From Methylacidiphilum infernorum V4 (GTDB lineage: Bacteria; Verrucomicrobiota; Verrucomicrobiia; Methylacidiphilales; Methylacidiphilaceae), in contig NC_010794.1 in NCBI RefSeq assembly GCF_000019665.1, forward strand, positions 1,860,001 through 1,924,000: a stretch of DNA of 64,000 bases, given 5' to 3'. Position numbers and translations under genes: made by a program. Under the pieces are notes generated by a model. The model was not told where the DNA came from. It worked only from the letters and a program-made list of their open reading frames with translations, and ran no database searches. Position 1 is the first letter of the stretch, and every line of letters starts with the position of its first letter. Below, piece by piece: positions 4,231 through 52,077 of this stretch.

Positions 4231-4272
4231 TCAGCGGTCCGTATAGTCCATGGGTTTGACTTTTGCCCGCGG

Positions 4273-5352
4273 GTGAGCTTATTCTTAATTTCTAAAACAA
4301 AAGAGAAAGGAATCGTTATAGAAAACTTCAAGACTCTTTCTCTTCCCCCGCTTACTCCCTACCAGCTATTTACCGTGGCCAACCACAAGGCTTTCTTTAT
4401 CGATGTTCAAAGCCAGCAGGTTCTAGGCATGATCGACTTGGGTTACCTTGGGAATATCGTTCTTTCACCAGGCGGTCAATTCGTCTATGCCGTAGAGAGT
4501 TTTTATAGCCGAGGCACGCGAGGGAAAAGGACAGATGTGATTACCCTCTACGACGGGAAAAATCTATCGGTTGTCGGAGAAATCATCATTCCTCCGAAAC
4601 GTTTTCTTTGCGTTATCAAGAAGAACACCCAGGCTTTGAGCGGAGAGGGCCGTTTCCTTCTTGTCTGCAACATTACTCCGGCCAGTTCCATAACGGTAGT
4701 TGATCTGCATCAAAGAAAGTTCTTAAGAGAGATTCCTACTCCCGGCTACGTTTTACTCTATCCCTACGAAAAGAGAAGGTTCATCATGATCGGCCGTGAT
4801 GGGAGTCTCTTGGTCTTCTCCATTGACGATGAAGGGCATCTTGAGCAGCGTCGCAGGTTTCCAGCCGGATTCTCGATGAACGATCCGTTGTTCGAACATG
4901 GCCTTTATCTCAGAAAGACCAACCAATACGTCTTTATCTCCTATGAAGGCCTGCTCAATTTCCTACAGCTCGAAGGCCCGGCGGTCCAATGGGGGAAAAA
5001 AGAAGATATCTCCCAAGGAAGCGGATGGAGACCGTGCGGTTGGCAACTTCTCAGTTGCGATCCCCTGGAAAAAAACCTCTATATTCTCATGCATAAGGCA
5101 GGCAAAGAGGGGCATAAAGATAGCGCCGAGGCGGTTTGGGAAGTGGACATGACGAATCAAAAATGCAAAAGAACGATTTCCTTGGAAAGACCGGTCGATT
5201 CGATACAGGTCGCAGCCCAACAAAAAACTTATCTTTGTTGCCTGAGTCGAAAAGGTTATCTTGATATCTATGATCTTCAAAAGGGCACAAAGATCGGATC
5301 CATGGAAGAACTTGGAGAAGGGGCTCTTCTTCTTTTAAGTTACTGCTCTTAA
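4273..5352 (+). CDS. mauB: methylamine dehydrogenase-like heavy chain
   Basis: This is the beta-propeller heavy (alpha) subunit of a TTQ-dependent amine dehydrogenase. It normally works in the periplasm, where two heavy and two light chains oxidise primary amines to aldehyde plus ammonia. Diagnostic segments are FYSRGTRGKRTDVITLYD (77-94) and the GWRPCGWQ...YILMH block (about 250-290). The propeller appears complete, starting near LPPLTPYQLF (24-33). The 359-residue product starts with GTG and has no signal peptide, unlike known MauB proteins. The frame is open only back to a TAA at 4228 and offers no better start. mauE follows after 4 bp. Confidence 0.85.
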   Translation: MSLFLISKTKEKGIVIENFKTLSLPPLTPYQLFTVANHKAFFIDVQSQQVLGMIDLGYLGNIVLSPGGQFVYAVESFYSRGTRGKRTDVITLYDGKNLSVVGEIIIPPKRFLCVIKKNTQALSGEGRFLLVCNITPASSITVVDLHQRKFLREIPTPGYVLLYPYEKRRFIMIGRDGSLLVFSIDDEGHLEQRRRFPAGFSMNDPLFEHGLYLRKTNQYVFISYEGLLNFLQLEGPAVQWGKKEDISQGSGWRPCGWQLLSCDPLEKNLYILMHKAGKEGHKDSAEAVWEVDMTNQKCKRTISLERPVDSIQVAAQQKTYLCCLSRKGYLDIYDLQKGTKIGSMEELGEGALLLLSYCS

Positions 5353-5356
5353 GCCT

Positions 5357-5902
5357 ATGGTCGATCCTCTGATCCATGATACAATCGTTTATTTTCTTGC
5401 CGCCCTTTTTTTTTATTCCGGGCTGCAAAAATGGATCCATCATCGTTACTTTATTTTATCCCTCGCAGGCTACCGTCTTTTCCCTGGGAAGCTCGTTTTG
5501 ATTCTCTCCTTTCTGATTCCCTTGAGCGAATGGGCAGCCTCCCTATGCTTATTCTTTCCTGGGGGGCAAACCTACGGTCTTATCCTGGCGCTTGGCCTCC
5601 TTGGAGTTTTTTCCCTTGTAATATTCATCAAGCTTCTCCAGGGTGAAGAACCGGCCGATTGCGGCTGTTTTGGTCCGGGGTTAAAACTGGAACTATCCTG
5701 GATTCTTCTTTTGAGAAACTTGGTCTTGCTTGGGATGTCGGCTCTCTCGCTCTGTCCCCAGTCTCACCGGCCCTTGACCTTTTGGGATCAACTCTTTTCT
5801 CCATGGATAACTTTCGTTTTTTGCCTTACCTTTGCCGCCTGGAATCGGATTCTCAGCAACAACTCTCTTCCCTTGTTGAAAAAAAAGAACCTTTATGAAT
5901 GA
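5357..5902 (+). CDS. mauE: methylamine utilization integral membrane protein MauE
   Basis: MauE is a membrane protein needed for maturation of the disulfide-rich MauA light chain and is related to DoxX/VKOR-like redox partners. The 181 residues form about four hydrophobic segments. The conserved DCGCFGPG motif (about 100-107) supplies the cysteine pair expected to pass electrons to or from MauD. The start is ATG, 4 bp after mauB, and the end overlaps mauD by 8 bp, so the genes are translationally coupled. Confidence 0.85.
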   Translation: MVDPLIHDTIVYFLAALFFYSGLQKWIHHRYFILSLAGYRLFPGKLVLILSFLIPLSEWAASLCLFFPGGQTYGLILALGLLGVFSLVIFIKLLQGEEPADCGCFGPGLKLELSWILLLRNLVLLGMSALSLCPQSHRPLTFWDQLFSPWITFVFCLTFAAWNRILSNNSLPLLKKKNLYE

Positions 5903-6509
5903 ACTGCTTGTCTTGCTGCTTGCCCTGGCCTGGATCATGATCGGTTTTCTTGCCCTCGGCCTTTTTGCCCTGGCACGGCAAATCGGTATCCTTCACGAAA
6001 GGATCAGCCCTCTTGGAGTCCTCCCCTTTCAGGGAGGAATAAAAGTAGGGGAAAAAACCAAGCCTTTTGAGTTAAAAGACATTGACGAGGGCAGGTCTCC
6101 CGTTCGAATAGGTGGGGAGCATCCCCTCAAAAAAGACAGCCTTGTCTTGTTTATCTCTCCGCGCTGTCCCTTATGCAAAAAGCTTCTGCCCGGCATCTCC
6201 ACTTTAAGCCGTTCATTGAACGACATCGAGCTTATCTTTGCCAGTGACGGAGAAGACAGGTCCGAGCATGAGAAAATAAGGAATTTAAAATATGTATCTC
6301 CTTTCCCTTATGTCGTTTCCCGGGAGCTTGGCGTTTTCTTTGGAGTAGCCTCGCTTCCCTATGCCGTTTATATTAATGCCGAAGGCAAGGTTATGGCCAA
6401 GGGGCTTGTCAATAGCATCGAACAGCTTGAAGGATTAATCGAGCATGGGCGAAGCCCGAAGAATGAACGGGGAAGGTGGCCTGATTCAACCTTGAGTCGA
6501 GAAGGCTAA
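5895..6509 (+). CDS. mauD: methylamine dehydrogenase accessory thioredoxin-like protein MauD
   Basis: MauD is a membrane-anchored thioredoxin-fold protein proposed to form or isomerise the disulfides of MauA in the periplasm. It has an N-terminal membrane helix (3-30) and then a thioredoxin-like domain. The redox motif CPLC is at 91-94, with the cis-Pro region near SLPYAVYI. The length of 204 residues fits the family. It overlaps mauE and precedes mauA by 36 bp. Confidence 0.87.
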   Translation: MNELLVLLLALAWIMIGFLALGLFALARQIGILHERISPLGVLPFQGGIKVGEKTKPFELKDIDEGRSPVRIGGEHPLKKDSLVLFISPRCPLCKKLLPGISTLSRSLNDIELIFASDGEDRSEHEKIRNLKYVSPFPYVVSRELGVFFGVASLPYAVYINAEGKVMAKGLVNSIEQLEGLIEHGRSPKNERGRWPDSTLSREG

Positions 6510-6545
6510 AGGCCCTTCAACGGACAGAGCAGACAGCCGGCTGAT

Positions 6546-7133
6546 ATGAAAGCAATTGACCGTCTCGTTGAGTTTTTTTGCCGCCATCTTGCCTTACGCC
6601 TGCCAAGGAGAAGTTTCTTCGCTTCTTTTGCCCTTTTTATAGGGGCGGCTAAGAACATCATGGCGGTCCCGGTTGAACGTCCCAGCCTTCTAAAGGATGA
6701 TGCGGAAGAAAAAAAAGGAAAAGAACCGCCTGCAAGCAACGATCCTGCCACTTCCTGTTCCTATTGGAGATACTGCAGCCTAGACGGTTTTCTCTGCAGC
6801 TGCTGTGGAGGGGGGGCCACAGCCTGTCCTCCCGGCACCTTCCCCTCTCCCACTCATTGGGTTGGAAGTTGCAGGAATCCCGAGGATGGCAAACATTACC
6901 TTGTTTCCTATCGGGATTGCTGTGGCAAAGGATACTGCGGTCGCTGTTACTGCCGCCAGACCGACGCAAAGGAAATGCCCGTCTATCAACTGCTCCGCAA
7001 CAATGATACAATCTGGTGTTTTGGAGCTCCTAACATGATCTATCACTGTACGGGAGCCGCCGTTCTTGCCCCTGCTCAAGACAATCCCCGGGAAGAAAGA
7101 GAACCGGTATCGCAGCACAAGGAAAAGGACTGA
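6546..7133 (+). CDS. mauA: methylamine dehydrogenase light chain (TTQ subunit)
   Basis: This is the catalytic beta subunit carrying tryptophan tryptophylquinone. A twin-arginine signal (LPRRSFF, 19-25) indicates export by Tat. The mature region is rich in Cys (14 between 71 and 168) for the dense disulfide network. The two cofactor tryptophans are present: Trp105 in THWVGSC and Trp157 in DTIWCFGAP. The acidic residues expected for TTQ formation and catalysis match Asp80 (SLDGFLC) and Asp124 (YRDCCG). A charged tail (180-195) extends beyond the usual end. Substrate could be methylamine or another small amine; sequence alone does not decide. Confidence 0.92.
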   Translation: MKAIDRLVEFFCRHLALRLPRRSFFASFALFIGAAKNIMAVPVERPSLLKDDAEEKKGKEPPASNDPATSCSYWRYCSLDGFLCSCCGGGATACPPGTFPSPTHWVGSCRNPEDGKHYLVSYRDCCGKGYCGRCYCRQTDAKEMPVYQLLRNNDTIWCFGAPNMIYHCTGAAVLAPAQDNPREEREPVSQHKEKD

Positions 7134-7152
7134 AGAAAAAAAGGGGGATTTG

Positions 7153-7608
7153 ATGCGTTTCCTATGCCGGTTCATTCTTCTTATGGTTGCGATTGACCCC
7201 CGTTTTTCATGGAGCTTGTCCAAGGAAGAGGAGCTATACTGGCTTCACTGCTCGGGTTGTCATGGTTTAAAAGGAGAGGGCGTTGCCGGGGTCTCTCCTC
7301 GGATCAACGAAACGATCGGCTACTTTGCCAGTACCGAGAAGGCAAGAAAGTATATCATCAAGCTTCCCGGGGTGGCCCTATCCCCCATGAGCGACGAGGA
7401 ACTTGCCGATCTTCTCAATTGGATGGTCGACTCTTTCAGCCCGCAGAAATTCCCCTTTAAAAAATTTACGAAAGAGGAGATAGCCCGGCAGAGAACAGAA
7501 CCTCTATGGGAAATAGAAAAAGAAAGGTTGAGCCTGCTCAAGACCCTGCCTCAAAAAGAGGCCTTAAGCCGATCCTGGAAAAAATTCCGGCTCGATTCCT
7601 CCCCATGA
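7153..7608 (+). CDS. monohaem c-type cytochrome, probable electron acceptor
   Basis: The frame opens earlier, but ATG 7153 is preceded by a G-rich ribosome site and gives a clean signal peptide (1-21), so I use it. The haem motif is CSGCH (33-37) with a likely axial Met79 (ALSPMS). The rest is a small class I-like fold plus a charged helical tail to residue 151. It is 19 bp after mauA in the same operon. It may take the place of amicyanin (mauC) as electron acceptor for the amine dehydrogenase. It has only one haem motif, so it is not MauG. Confidence 0.75.
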   Translation: MRFLCRFILLMVAIDPRFSWSLSKEEELYWLHCSGCHGLKGEGVAGVSPRINETIGYFASTEKARKYIIKLPGVALSPMSDEELADLLNWMVDSFSPQKFPFKKFTKEEIARQRTEPLWEIEKERLSLLKTLPQKEALSRSWKKFRLDSSP

Positions 7609-7778: not shown

Positions 7779-7864
7779 GCCCTCGTGGCGGAATGGCAGA
7801 CGCACAGGACTTAAAATCCTGTGAGCTTAAAAAGCTCGTGCGGGTTCGAGTCCCGCCGGGGGCA
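7779..7864 (+). tRNA. tRNA-Leu (anticodon TAA)
   Basis: A seven-pair acceptor stem (GCCCTCG with CGGGGGC), an anticodon stem CAGGA/TCCTG around the loop CTTAAAA giving anticodon TAA, a long variable arm, and a GCGGG/CCCGC T-arm with TTCGAGT loop are all present. The discriminator is A and CCA is not encoded. Confidence 0.95.
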
Positions 7865-7886
7865 CATCAAGTTTATTAGCTGCAAC

Positions 7887-11314: not shown

Positions 11315-11881
11315 ATGGCTAAATTTGTTTCTTTACTTTTTCCTTCCCCGGCCTGCTTCTTGGCAATCCTTTTAGTGCTTGTTTTCTTGAGTTCCTGCAG
11401 CCCTATATCGGGTCGCATTATGAAAGAAGCCCAAGGAAGCCCTTCTTTTACGGAGATTAAAAAGAATCCTAACCGCTACAAGAATAAAATGGTGATACTC
11501 GGGGGCACCATTGCCCAAGTCAAAAACCTGAAAAACAAAAGTTACATAGAAATTATTCAAAACCCGTTGGACAATACCGATTATCCCTTGGACAGTTCAA
11601 AATCCTCGGGTCGATTCCTTGTCCTAACAAGCCGTTTTATCGATCCCCAGCTTTACAGCGTCGGCAAAAGGATAACGGTTGCAGGCAGGATCATCGGTGG
11701 CCAGCCTGGAGTCATAGGTCAAAGAACTTATGTCTATCCCTTGATTGCCGCTTCCCAAATCCACCTCTGGCCATCCTATTCCGCATCGGAATACGACTAC
11801 CAGGCTCTAGGCATGGGCATGGGTCCGTTTATGGGTCCATCCTGGGGGTGGGGAGGATATGGACCGGGATTTTTCTGGTAG
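11315..11881 (+). CDS. Slp-family outer-membrane lipoprotein (first copy)
   Basis: The Slp/YeaY family comprises outer-membrane lipoproteins induced by starvation or acid in enterics. A signal peptide ends in LSSC (Cys near residue 28). The mature domain has the family's IKKNPNRYKNKMVILGGTI start and the SGRFLVLTSRFIDP...YSVGKRITVAGRI core (about 80-135). The tail is rich in Gly, Met, Trp and Tyr. A second copy follows after 72 bp. Confidence 0.8.
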   Translation: MAKFVSLLFPSPACFLAILLVLVFLSSCSPISGRIMKEAQGSPSFTEIKKNPNRYKNKMVILGGTIAQVKNLKNKSYIEIIQNPLDNTDYPLDSSKSSGRFLVLTSRFIDPQLYSVGKRITVAGRIIGGQPGVIGQRTYVYPLIAASQIHLWPSYSASEYDYQALGMGMGPFMGPSWGWGGYGPGFFW

Positions 11882-11953: not shown

Positions 11954-12529
11954 ATGAATTCCCCTAGCCTTGGGTTTAGGATTCTCTTCCTTCCGGTTCT
12001 TCTTTTTGGATTGATTTCCTGTAGTCCTTTTTCAAGCACGGTAAAAAAAGAAACCCGGGGCCAACCTTCCTTTTCCCAGCTCATACGAAATCCCCAAGCC
12101 TACAAGGGAAGGACCGTGATGTTCGGGGGAACCATAGCCCAAACGAAAAATTTAAAAAATACCACGCTGATCGAGGTAATTCAAAAGCCCTTGGATAGTT
12201 CAACGGACAGGCCCCTGGATACGGATAGAAGCGGAGGCCGGTTCCTGATCGCCTCAAAAAAATTTCTCGATCCCTCTATTTACAGTAAAGATAGGGCGGT
12301 GACGGTTGTCGGCAAAGTCCTGGGTGTTCAGCCCGGAGTGATCGGGAAAAGATCCTACGCCTACCCGGTCATCGGGGCAACCCAGATCCATCTTTGGTCA
12401 GAGTCCTATTATTACCCCGGGTACTACTACCCCGGTTATTTCTGGGGCCCAGGTTGGGGCTGGGGTTGGGGCCCAGGCTGGGGGTGGGGCTGGGGTCCAG
12501 GTTGGGGTTGGGGCTGGGGCTGGTGGTAA
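11954..12529 (+). CDS. Slp-family outer-membrane lipoprotein (second copy) with Gly-Trp tail
   Basis: This is a paralogue of the preceding gene with the same lipobox type (LISC), the NPQAYKGRTVMFGGTIAQ opening and the GRFLIASKKFLDP...RAVTVVGKV core. It differs in a tail of about 28 residues built almost only from Gly, Trp and Pro. The pair probably arose by tandem duplication and is probably co-transcribed. The tail could sit at the cell surface or bind a ligand or ions. Confidence 0.8.
   Translation: MNSPSLGFRILFLPVLLFGLISCSPFSSTVKKETRGQPSFSQLIRNPQAYKGRTVMFGGTIAQTKNLKNTTLIEVIQKPLDSSTDRPLDTDRSGGRFLIASKKFLDPSIYSKDRAVTVVGKVLGVQPGVIGKRSYAYPVIGATQIHLWSESYYYPGYYYPGYFWGPGWGWGWGPGWGWGWGPGWGWGWGWW
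12440..12526 (+). repeat. Gly-Trp coding repeat
   Basis: The 3' end of the second slp gene is a run of near-identical GGTTGGGGCTGGGG-type units encoding GPGWGWGW blocks about three times. Such G-rich arrays change length easily by slippage, so strains may differ here. Confidence 0.7.
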
Positions 12530-49681: not shown

Positions 49682-50379
49682 AAAATTTAAAAATGAAGAA
49701 AGTTTCTCCTTCGTTTAACTTCCGGGGATGAAAAAGAAAAGATCCTTCCTTTTTTTTGGGTTTTTAGGAAAAAAAGAAAGAAAGGCACACTTTCCCAGGG
49801 GAGATTTCCACGCGCGCTTCGCAAGTTTTTAGGAAAACAAGAAAGAACGGTAACCCTGGATTCATGCATACAAGGAAAGACTATCCACAATCTTTCTCTC
49901 AAATCCAGTTTTTTTCCTTCTCCAAGAGCAACAACAAGTCAAATCCTCCACTCAATCCAGCAAAACCAAGGAACAGGTCCCTTTGGCTAAGATAAACCAA
50001 AAGAAGGACTTTTGTAGAACGGCTCAAGGCCCGAGAATTCATTCCCTCCTTGATCGGTCCAGGACAAATAATACAACCTGAAGCCCAAGCGGGGCGAAAA
50101 AGAACGGATTCAACCAGTTGGCTTCCTTTCCGTAGCGCTGGTGGAACCCCATAGAAAGCCCAGGAGTCCCAGGCCAAGCTTTTCAAGGTCAAGATCATCT
50201 TCCCATAGCACTTTGCCCTTTCTTTCCCGGTCAATTTAAACGGCTAGGTTCCCTTCCCAACCCGGTTTATAAAATGAAGAAAGGGGGAGCATGGCCGCCG
50301 CCTTCGGCGCAGGCTCACAGCCGGCTAATAGGTAGAATCAAAAGAAAGGATAAGATTTTCTTCTCTTTTTCCAGCCGTC
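49682..50379. other. probably degenerate DNA beside IS607 copy 2
   Basis: A minus-strand frame at 49899-50234 (111 codons) has no homology I recognise. Neighbouring frames over 49930-50180 look equally protein-like but are broken by stops. This could be a decayed gene. A GC-rich GCCGCCGCCTTCGGCG patch lies near 50300. Confidence 0.35.
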
Positions 50380-50496
50380 TCAGGCGGCTTGGAGCAGGAG
50401 TCTTGTTCCTGCCCCTTTAATAAGCGGCCCAACTCCTTTAGCAATAACCCCTGTAAGCTGGATCAAAGAACCCAGGTCCACTCTCCTGCCGGCCAT
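50380..50496 (-). CDS. possible 38-residue peptide gene
   Basis: From ATG 50496, preceded by GAGCGGGGGATAAAA, a frame encodes 38 residues: MAGRRVDLGSLIQLTGVIAK, a Gly/Leu/Lys stretch and LLLQAA. It is small, cationic and amphipathic-looking, as in toxin, bacteriocin-like or membrane peptides. The stop codon sits in a CCAAGCCG...CGGCTGG hairpin. It starts 28 bp outside the right end of IS607 copy 2. Chance cannot be excluded. Confidence 0.25.
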   Translation of the reverse strand: MAGRRVDLGSLIQLTGVIAKGVGPLIKGAGTRLLLQAA

Positions 50497-50529
50497 TTTT
50501 ATCCCCCGCTCAACCCCCGTTTGCTGCTA

Positions 50530-51870
50530 TCAAGAAAGTGTGCAAACATGCGCACTTTCCTTTCCTGCCCCGACGCGTCTTGCTGACCGATTCGTAGCTG
50601 ACAGGCCTGCCTTTCCCGACTCCGACAGGGACCGTCCCTGTCGTAGTGCCGTCGTTGCCGGTCGGACTCGCCACATGTAGGGTAGTTGCGGCTGCCAGCC
50701 GTTTGAGATTGATCGCCGCGTTCACATCATGGTCATGGGGCGTACCGCACTCGGGGCACGTCCACTCCCGATCCTTGAGCGCGAGCACTTCGTTCTTCCA
50801 GCCACAGACCGCGCACAACCGGCTTCTCGGATAACAGCGGTCTGCGATTGCCCTGCCTTGTTCCGCAGCGCCTGGCCTTGTACTCGATCTGCGATCGGAA
50901 CATTCTAAAGCCCACGAAGCTTGTGGCGCGGGCCAGTCGGTCGTTTGCCAACATGCCTTTGACGTGCAGATCCTCGAGTACCACCGCTTGGTTTTCGCGG
51001 CAGAGCCGGGTCGTGAGCTTGTGGGTGAAATCCGCTCTGACATTGGCAACGCGGGCGTGCAGCCTTGCCAATGTCGCAGCAGACTTCCTGCGGTTGTTGG
51101 AGACGGGAAGTTTGGTGCCTTTGGGCAGACGAGCTTGAGGAGCAAATCCGGCGGCAACCTTGGCGGCTTCGATCTTGCGGCTTAAGCGTCGGCTACGGAT
51201 TCTCAATCGGCGCAGAGCGGCTTTCAACGGTCTGGGAGCATCAATCGCTTCGCCACTTGAGAGGGTGGCTGCTGCTTTGACGCCAAAGTCAAGGCCCACA
51301 ACACCATCGCCCGTGCGGCGGCGATGGAATATGCGGTCTGGCACTTCGACCTGAATCGCCACAAACCAGCGATCCGCCGTGCGAGAGACGGTGGCGCCGA
51401 GAATCTTGCCCTCAAAGCGCAGCGCCTCGGCCATGGCGACTTCGCCCACTTTGGGCAGGAGAATCGTCTTACCGCTGACCCGAAACTTGTCGTTGGCCAC
51501 ATAGAAGCTGTCGCGGCAGCGGCCCTTCTTTTTGAACTGCAGTTCGCGTGCTGGTTTGCCAGCTTTGATGTCGGCGAAGAAGCGCTTCCATGCCTTTTCG
51601 AGGCGCGCAAAGGGCCGGGGATGGGCATCCCGATGGATGGCCTTGAGCCAGGGTTTGCCGTTCTCATCGAGCCACTGCGGGTCGTTGTACTTGATGGCGT
51701 CCAACTGTTTTTTAAGCGCCATCGCGTTTGGTTTCTTGCCCTGGGCGTACTGCTTGTTCCACTCGTACAGCGCTTGGGTTCCAGACACGCCTGGCTGTAC
51801 AACAGGAGGGCTTGAAGTAGTCCACCCGCTCAGGCATTGGGCAGAGGGCGATTTTGTGGGTCAGTTGCAT
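50530..51870 (-). pseudogene. tnpB: IS607 tnpB, frameshifted
   Basis: From ATG 51870 the frame gives the TnpB start (MQLTHKIAL). It shifts near 51780, where CCCA replaces a three-base codon after VWN. The main frame (51788-50733) carries RuvC Asp and Glu motifs ([19 protein letters not shown]). A second shift near 50870 moves the zinc finger (CAVCGWKN...CPECG) and final Asp motif (HDHDVNAA) to another frame. No functional protein is expected. At the codon-124 site it reads Tyr-Val, unlike the TGA of copy 1. Confidence 0.85.
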
Positions 51871-51873
51871 CGC

Positions 51874-52077
51874 TTAGTCGTATTGCTCTTCCGTCGATCG
51901 CCAAACGACCTCGCCTGTTTCCACGCAGATGACACGCACCTCTTGCTCTTCCGGATCGTCCACGCCTTCGATTGCTGTCGCTATGGCAATAGAAATGCTG
52001 TCGTAATGCTGAGTAAATACGTGCGCCGGCAACCAATCGCTGGTTAACACAAAGTCAGATTCAATCCGATAGGTCAT
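51874..52077 (-). CDS. small passenger ORF between tnpA and tnpB
   Basis: The 67-residue acidic protein begins MTYRIESDFVLTSDWLPAHV, overlaps the end of tnpA by 17 bp, and stops 3 bp before the tnpB ATG. The spacing makes tnpA-ORF-tnpB look like one translationally coupled unit. Copy 1 has no counterpart; there the two genes are 4 bp apart. Unlike its neighbours it has no stop or frameshift. The second half (VRVICVETGEVVWRSTEEQ) looks like a beta hairpin. The function is unknown. Confidence 0.55.
   Translation of the reverse strand: MTYRIESDFVLTSDWLPAHVFTQHYDSISIAIATAIEGVDDPEEQEVRVICVETGEVVWRSTEEQYD

Follow-up and report, generated by a model that had tools for sequence, protein, structure and literature searches.

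Methylacidiphilum infernorum V4 is a heat- and acid-loving methane eater. Here, we describe a compact gene cluster, mauB-mauE-mauD-mauA-cytochrome c, found at positions 4273–7608 of a 64,000-nucleotide stretch of its genome (contig positions 1,860,001–1,924,000 of NC_010794.1; hereafter the window, to whose first letter the coordinates refer), which is very probably a tryptophan tryptophylquinone (TTQ) amine dehydrogenase operon of the BEDA-cytochrome type resembling that of aromatic amine dehydrogenase (AADH). All five genes lie on the forward strand: mauB (4318–5352; a mauB/aauB-like heavy chain of 344 codons, PF06433, E-value 7e-48), mauE (5357–5902; a membrane redox accessory protein, PF07291, E-value 3e-26), mauD (5895–6509; a membrane-anchored, thioredoxin-like protein with a CPLC motif, Pfam E-value 1e-7, matching TIGR02661 at an E-value of 2e-39 with 135 bits and not reaching its cut-off of 189), mauA (6546–7133; a mauA/aauA-like light chain with the twin-arginine-type signal PRRSFF, PF02975, E-value 4e-45), and a gene for a secreted monoheme cytochrome c of the Thermus c552 type (7153–7608, starting at ATG 7153). 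These profile matches confirm the placement of the four mau genes in an earlier annotation made from the letters of the window alone (hereafter the sequence-only reading). The cluster was already reported, as mauBEDAmoxG (Minf_1997–2001), in the reviewer discussion of the V4 genome paper (Hou et al. 2008, PMC2474590), where a “MauG homolog” (Minf_1905) at another locus and the absence of amicyanin, MauF, and MauL were also noted, so that the missing mauG, mauC (amicyanin), and mauF of the sequence-only reading had in part been published.

Trp105 and Trp157 of the light chain (codons 6858–6860 and 7014–7016; equivalent to beta-Trp57 and beta-Trp108 of methylamine dehydrogenase, MADH) align with the TTQ tryptophans, and Asp80 and Asp124 align with the active-site aspartates of MADH and AADH; all four residues are invariant in 91 of 91 homologues. 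The mature V4 light chain contains 14 cysteines in the AADH pattern. With a beta-propeller heavy chain (PF06433) and a light chain (PF02975) that keeps the two tryptophans, the two aspartates, and the cysteine network, as the sequence-only reading had stated, the V4 proteins display the hallmarks of TTQ amine dehydrogenases, and the AlphaFold2 (AF2) model of MauB (predicted local distance difference test, pLDDT, of 91) superimposes on the MADH heavy chain 2bbk with a Z score of 44.5. Among 62 genomes of the order that were searched, mauA is present in all five Methylacidiphilum species and in none of the 57 others, and the same operon occupies the same genomic place in each of the five. Pairwise ratios of nonsynonymous to synonymous change (dN/dS) between these species, where computable, are 0.05–0.17 for mauA and mauB, indicating purifying selection on both genes. 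The encoded product is likely a periplasmic TTQ amine dehydrogenase in working order, with the cofactor and the activity predicted from sequence.

The best match of V4 MauA in the PDB is the AADH light chain (150 bits, 54% identity), compared with 127 bits for the Paracoccus denitrificans MADH chain 3l4m_C. Because both subunits fall under the equivalog cut-offs for amicyanin-type MADH (TIGR02658, 178 of 454 bits; TIGR02659, 158 of 197 bits) and methylamine did not support growth of V4 (PMC2474590), an identity as methylamine dehydrogenase, the enzyme to which the sequence-only reading had likened the cluster, is not supported. The cluster shares with the AADH operon of Alcaligenes faecalis and Pseudomonas (aauBEDA-cytochrome) the B-E-D-A-c order with mauG, mauF, and mauC not nearby, the 14-cysteine light chain, and the loop-deleted cytochrome described below, but differs from it in the lack of an azurin-type cupredoxin in V4 and in the Methylacidiphilum heavy chain, which is devoid of a signal peptide, of an N-terminal segment of about 7 residues, and of a shared ATG, GTG, or TTG start. 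Compared with the mau cluster of Paracoccus and Methylobacterium (mauFBEDACJGMN), MauB, MauE, MauD, and MauA are homologous and the TTQ residues identical, whereas mauF, mauC, mauJ, mauG, mauM, and mauN are missing from the V4 cluster, with mauG, mauC, and mauF missing from the V4 genome as well. The AADH cluster was reportedly described by Chistoserdov in 2001. When MauB, MauD, and MauA are concatenated, the MADH sequences accompanied by MauG form one clade. Methylacidiphilum is separate from this clade and lies on the same side of the deepest split as AADH (SH-aLRT, the Shimodaira–Hasegawa-like approximate likelihood ratio test, of 99), although its branch is long, at 1.6 changes per column; the tree of MauA alone does not settle its placement between AADH and MADH. 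The concatenated tree, without a known root, is compatible with either a derived or an ancestral dependence on MauG.

A survey of the best 80 mauA loci from a search of 84,980 species recovered B-E-D-A-cytochrome as the main anatomy, occasionally with two cytochromes, and with mauG, mauF, mauC, and mauJ not nearby; the V4 system is thus ordinary for its branch. In 83 of 87 loci, mauA is followed by a homologue of the operon cytochrome; the remaining four are loci with copies consisting of B and A only. No further conserved neighbor of B, E, D, A, and the cytochrome emerged as a maturation candidate, in a clustering that was noisy owing to antisense open reading frames in GC-rich loci. Additional mauB-mauA pairs without mauE and mauD were seen at five loci (L023, L025, L026, L034, and L035), HR39 and HR40 carry a full B-E-D-A-c copy on a separate contig, and at two loci (L038 and L057) the operon is rearranged, with A-c on one strand and D-E-B on the opposite one.

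The cytochrome that the sequence-only reading had placed after mauA is indeed present and monoheme, but is not an ordinary cytochrome in its anatomy. Its nearest solved relative by sequence profile and by fold is Thermus thermophilus c552 (84 bits; AF2 model with pLDDT 87 and a Z score of 11.3 to 1c52), and it keeps the c552 fold with a CxxCH heme motif (CSGCH, 7249–7263), but not the axial methionine ligand. The span between the conserved Arg65 and Asn89 measures 25–26 residues across the family, and 25 in V4, compared with 43 in Thermus c552, so that 18 residues are missing, the axial-Met loop included, and (V/L)-P-(G/N) stands in place of the loop (LPG in V4, 7363–7371). The family alignment contains no conserved Met column, and 9 of 84 cytochromes, including four of the five from Methylacidiphilum, lack Met entirely in the part that follows CxxCH. 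Where an operon encodes two cytochromes, the other one, a paralogue (c1), retains a KMPSF-like Met ligand. Asn89 and Arg65 were considered as replacement axial ligands and set aside, since both also occur in Met-ligated c1 and c552. The loop deletion, a new observation of this analysis, suggests a heme iron that is probably five-coordinate, and the lost methionine is no less consistent with catalysis or a part in maturation than with simple electron transfer. In Ferruginivarius (L065, 10411–11200), a Met-ligated c1 domain and a second heme domain are fused into one diheme protein.

The distribution of this cytochrome was also traced in plasmids. Among 72,556 plasmids, 30 records carry mauA; matches to the V4 cytochrome are limited to 15 of these 30 and lie at most 1.4 kb from mauA, and the other 15 encode MauG within the mau cluster (13 Paracoccus, Methylobacterium, and Indioceanicola), such that no record has both and none has neither. 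Several genera stand on either side of this split, and strong matches to the cytochrome among the 62 genomes of the host's order are confined to the five that have mauA. Such mutual exclusion is the pattern expected for non-orthologous replacement. A plausible alternative, to which we give somewhat less than even chances, is that the cytochrome serves solely as the electron acceptor in place of amicyanin or azurin, with TTQ maturing autocatalytically or through an unlinked, unrecognized oxidase; the conservation of the cytochrome in the operon and of its c552-like scaffold, as well as the lack of a cupredoxin in V4, would all fit such a role. Deletion of the axial-Met loop across the aligned family is, however, unusual in an electron carrier, many operons have an additional Met-ligated c1 cytochrome, and the partner crystallized with A. 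faecalis AADH is azurin (2h47, 2h3x). The lost methionine speaks mildly for a catalytic heme.

MauG is the textbook TTQ-maturation enzyme. The genome-wide comparison recovered a single CCP_MauG protein in V4 (G000:C1:1780691; L001 1180–2379), about 85 kb from the cluster, which, being the only such protein, we take to be Minf_1905 of the genome paper. It scores 341 bits to CcpR, a bacterial cytochrome c peroxidase (bCCP), compared with 97 bits to MauG, has a Met at the position of the MauG heme ligand Tyr294, and is missing the hopping residue Trp199, and is by these features a classical Met-ligated bCCP, not MauG, so that the assignment as MauG published for M. infernorum needs correction; V4 has no Tyr294-type member of the MauG/bCCP superfamily. 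The operon cytochrome, for its part, is a single c552-type domain and not a diheme peroxidase. No PF00127 cupredoxin was found in the V4 genome, where the sole Cupredoxin_1 match, examined as a replacement for amicyanin, is cytochrome-oxidase subunit II (CoxB), and no match to MauF was obtained in a search run without a positive control. The absence of mauG, mauC, and mauF thus extends from the cluster to the genome, and a mauG elsewhere, the first option of the sequence-only reading, fails on two counts: the published candidate in V4 is a bCCP, and the congeneric Methylacidiphilum sp. Yel (below) lacks any CCP_MauG protein.

Hosts of mauA were searched for CCP_MauG proteins with two models, TIGR03791 and PF03150. 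No TIGR03791 match was detected in 17 of 47 hosts, and 16 of these 17 also lacked a PF03150 match. The 16 include ten isolates: Methylacidiphilum sp. Yel, Modicisalibacter luteus, Novosphingobium beihaiensis, N. cyanobacteriorum, N. nitrogenifigens, Alcaligenaceae CGII-47, Marinimicrococcus flavescens, Sandarakinorhabdus sp. AAP62, S. oryzae, and Sphingomonas spermidinifaciens. The first of these, a 99% complete draft (G027, the same as L022/G062), carries mauBEDA-c and has no CCP_MauG protein by either model. As a control for sensitivity, the proven and very divergent P. denitrificans MauG was still detected (E-value 1e-27). The TIGR03791 cut-off was rejected as a test for MauG because the same proven protein, at 94.6 bits, stays under the required 443.85 and is missed by the model, and absence was called instead from diagnostic residues and from total absence of matches. 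The MauG-free condition is real and general in the BEDA-cytochrome branch, and not peculiar to V4.

That the bCCP or another diheme peroxidase substitutes for MauG, as the “MauG homolog” of Hou et al. implied, seems unlikely: one bCCP does occur in four of the five Methylacidiphilum genomes, and the inter-heme Trp93 is shared with MauG, but the Met ligand and the missing Trp199 speak against this function, as do the absence of CCP_MauG in Methylacidiphilum sp. Yel and 15 further mauA hosts and the occurrence of bCCP in Methylacidimicrobium-like members of the family, which have no mauA.

The heavy-chain gene has an unusual 5' end. The sequence-only reading started mauB at GTG 4273, from which the frame is open; this codon is not conserved, and no ATG, GTG, or TTG start is common to mauB of the five Methylacidiphilum species. 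Instead, all five (V4 and L018–L021) share a Shine–Dalgarno (SD)-like AAGGA followed after 6–7 nt by ATA-GAA (in V4, AAAGGA and the proposed AUA start codon 4318–4320, together spanning 4306–4320). The frame counted from ATA comprises exactly 344 intact codons in every species, third-position-biased change starts at ATA, and upstream of it single-base indels disrupt the frame. In the AF2 model, the first 15 residues of the GTG-frame protein are mostly disordered (pLDDT below 50), and the ATA lies near the beginning of the mature chain of relatives. Taken together, the alignments suggest that mauB is translated from an AUA start and that GTG 4273 is probably wrong. No signal peptide was found on MauB in any of the five species; a frameshifted one 5' of the gene was looked for and dismissed, as none of the reading frames upstream is conserved and the sequence just above ATA contains single-base indels. 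A hydrophobic N-terminus with a start was found for 77 of 86 MauB hits, the remainder being the Methylacidiphilum copies, of which one was counted twice, a hit truncated at a contig end, another slightly below threshold, and P. denitrificans, whose signal was missed by the script. Methylacidiphilum MauB also lacks about 7 residues near the segment that bears alpha-Phe55 in MADH, which we take to be the substrate-gating residue and which is named in the title of PDB entry 1mg2. New in this analysis is a heavy subunit that lacks both a signal peptide and a standard start codon, and MauB may be exported without a signal of its own, perhaps jointly with the twin-arginine-type MauA. That the Methylacidiphilum operon no longer yields a TTQ enzyme, its proteins decaying or repurposed after loss of the MauB start and signal peptide, would accord with the lack of both in all five species and of growth of V4 on methylamine (PMC2474590), but is improbable given the 344 intact codons after ATA, a mauB dN/dS of 0.05–0.15, the third-position bias from ATA onward, and the retention of every active-site residue.

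On balance, we moderately favor a MauG-free, AADH-like operon with its own cytochrome as the likeliest helper in TTQ formation. MauA would be exported through its twin-arginine-type signal, acquire its disulfides with the help of MauD and MauE, and then pair with the beta-propeller MauB; Trp105 and Trp157 would become TTQ, which would oxidize a primary amine to an aldehyde and ammonia. Since MauG is found neither in the V4 genome nor in the operons of most relatives, TTQ would arise without it, and such independence is probable, with TTQ in the CCP_MauG-free hosts deduced from their genes. The heme of the cytochrome, probably open and five-coordinate, might react with H2O2 or O2, like the reactive heme of MauG, and drive the oxidative cross-linking. 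Given the lack of a cupredoxin in V4, electrons would exit through the operon cytochrome or another soluble cytochrome. The suggestion of the sequence-only reading that another enzyme matures TTQ while the cytochrome replaces amicyanin survives in altered form, the absence of MauG and amicyanin being branch-wide and the cytochrome Met-less. That this constitutes a second, MauG-independent TTQ route with the loop-deleted c552-type cytochrome as a peroxidase-like maturation enzyme is a tentative proposal.

Several points weigh against this interpretation. A. faecalis, whose AADH is biochemically proven and was the source of the crystal structures, carries a Tyr-type diheme protein and hence is no clean case for MauG-independence; this protein (L106) is unlinked and is neither a bCCP nor a clear MauG. 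A missing axial Met alone does not establish a five-coordinate or catalytic heme, and a monoheme protein might fail at six-electron chemistry. The plasmid records are related and phylogenetically clustered, so that a nominal probability for their split is not meaningful, and a swap of electron acceptors, cytochrome for amicyanin, would yield the same split. Methylacidiphilum MauB would have to reach the periplasm without a signal peptide, methylamine gave no growth of V4 (PMC2474590), and transcript levels in Methylacidiphilum fumariolicum SolV were modest (PMC3404531, PMC5623727). In the open literature, with subscription journals outside the search, no paper was found on MauG-free TTQ formation or on the operon cytochrome. 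MauG is confined to one branch of the sampled family, and for TTQ formation in the others the loop-deleted cytochrome offers one concrete candidate that is amenable to knock-out.

Upstream of mauB, a putative sigma-70-like promoter (TTGACT-18-TATTCT, 4256–4285, forward strand) overlaps GTG 4273; it has 9 of 12 consensus matches and aligns with a counterpart in a sister species (L018), but is weak evidence taken alone, as two such sites were found compared with 2.8 expected by chance. A tRNA-Leu (TAA) gene lies immediately 3' of the operon at 7779–7865, and no other RNA element was found in or near it. Elsewhere in the window, two similar lipoprotein-like genes (Slp-like by eye) stand in tandem at 11315–11881 and 11954–12529, and the local G+C content peaks at 0.57 in 50001–52000, compared with about 0.48 in the surroundings.

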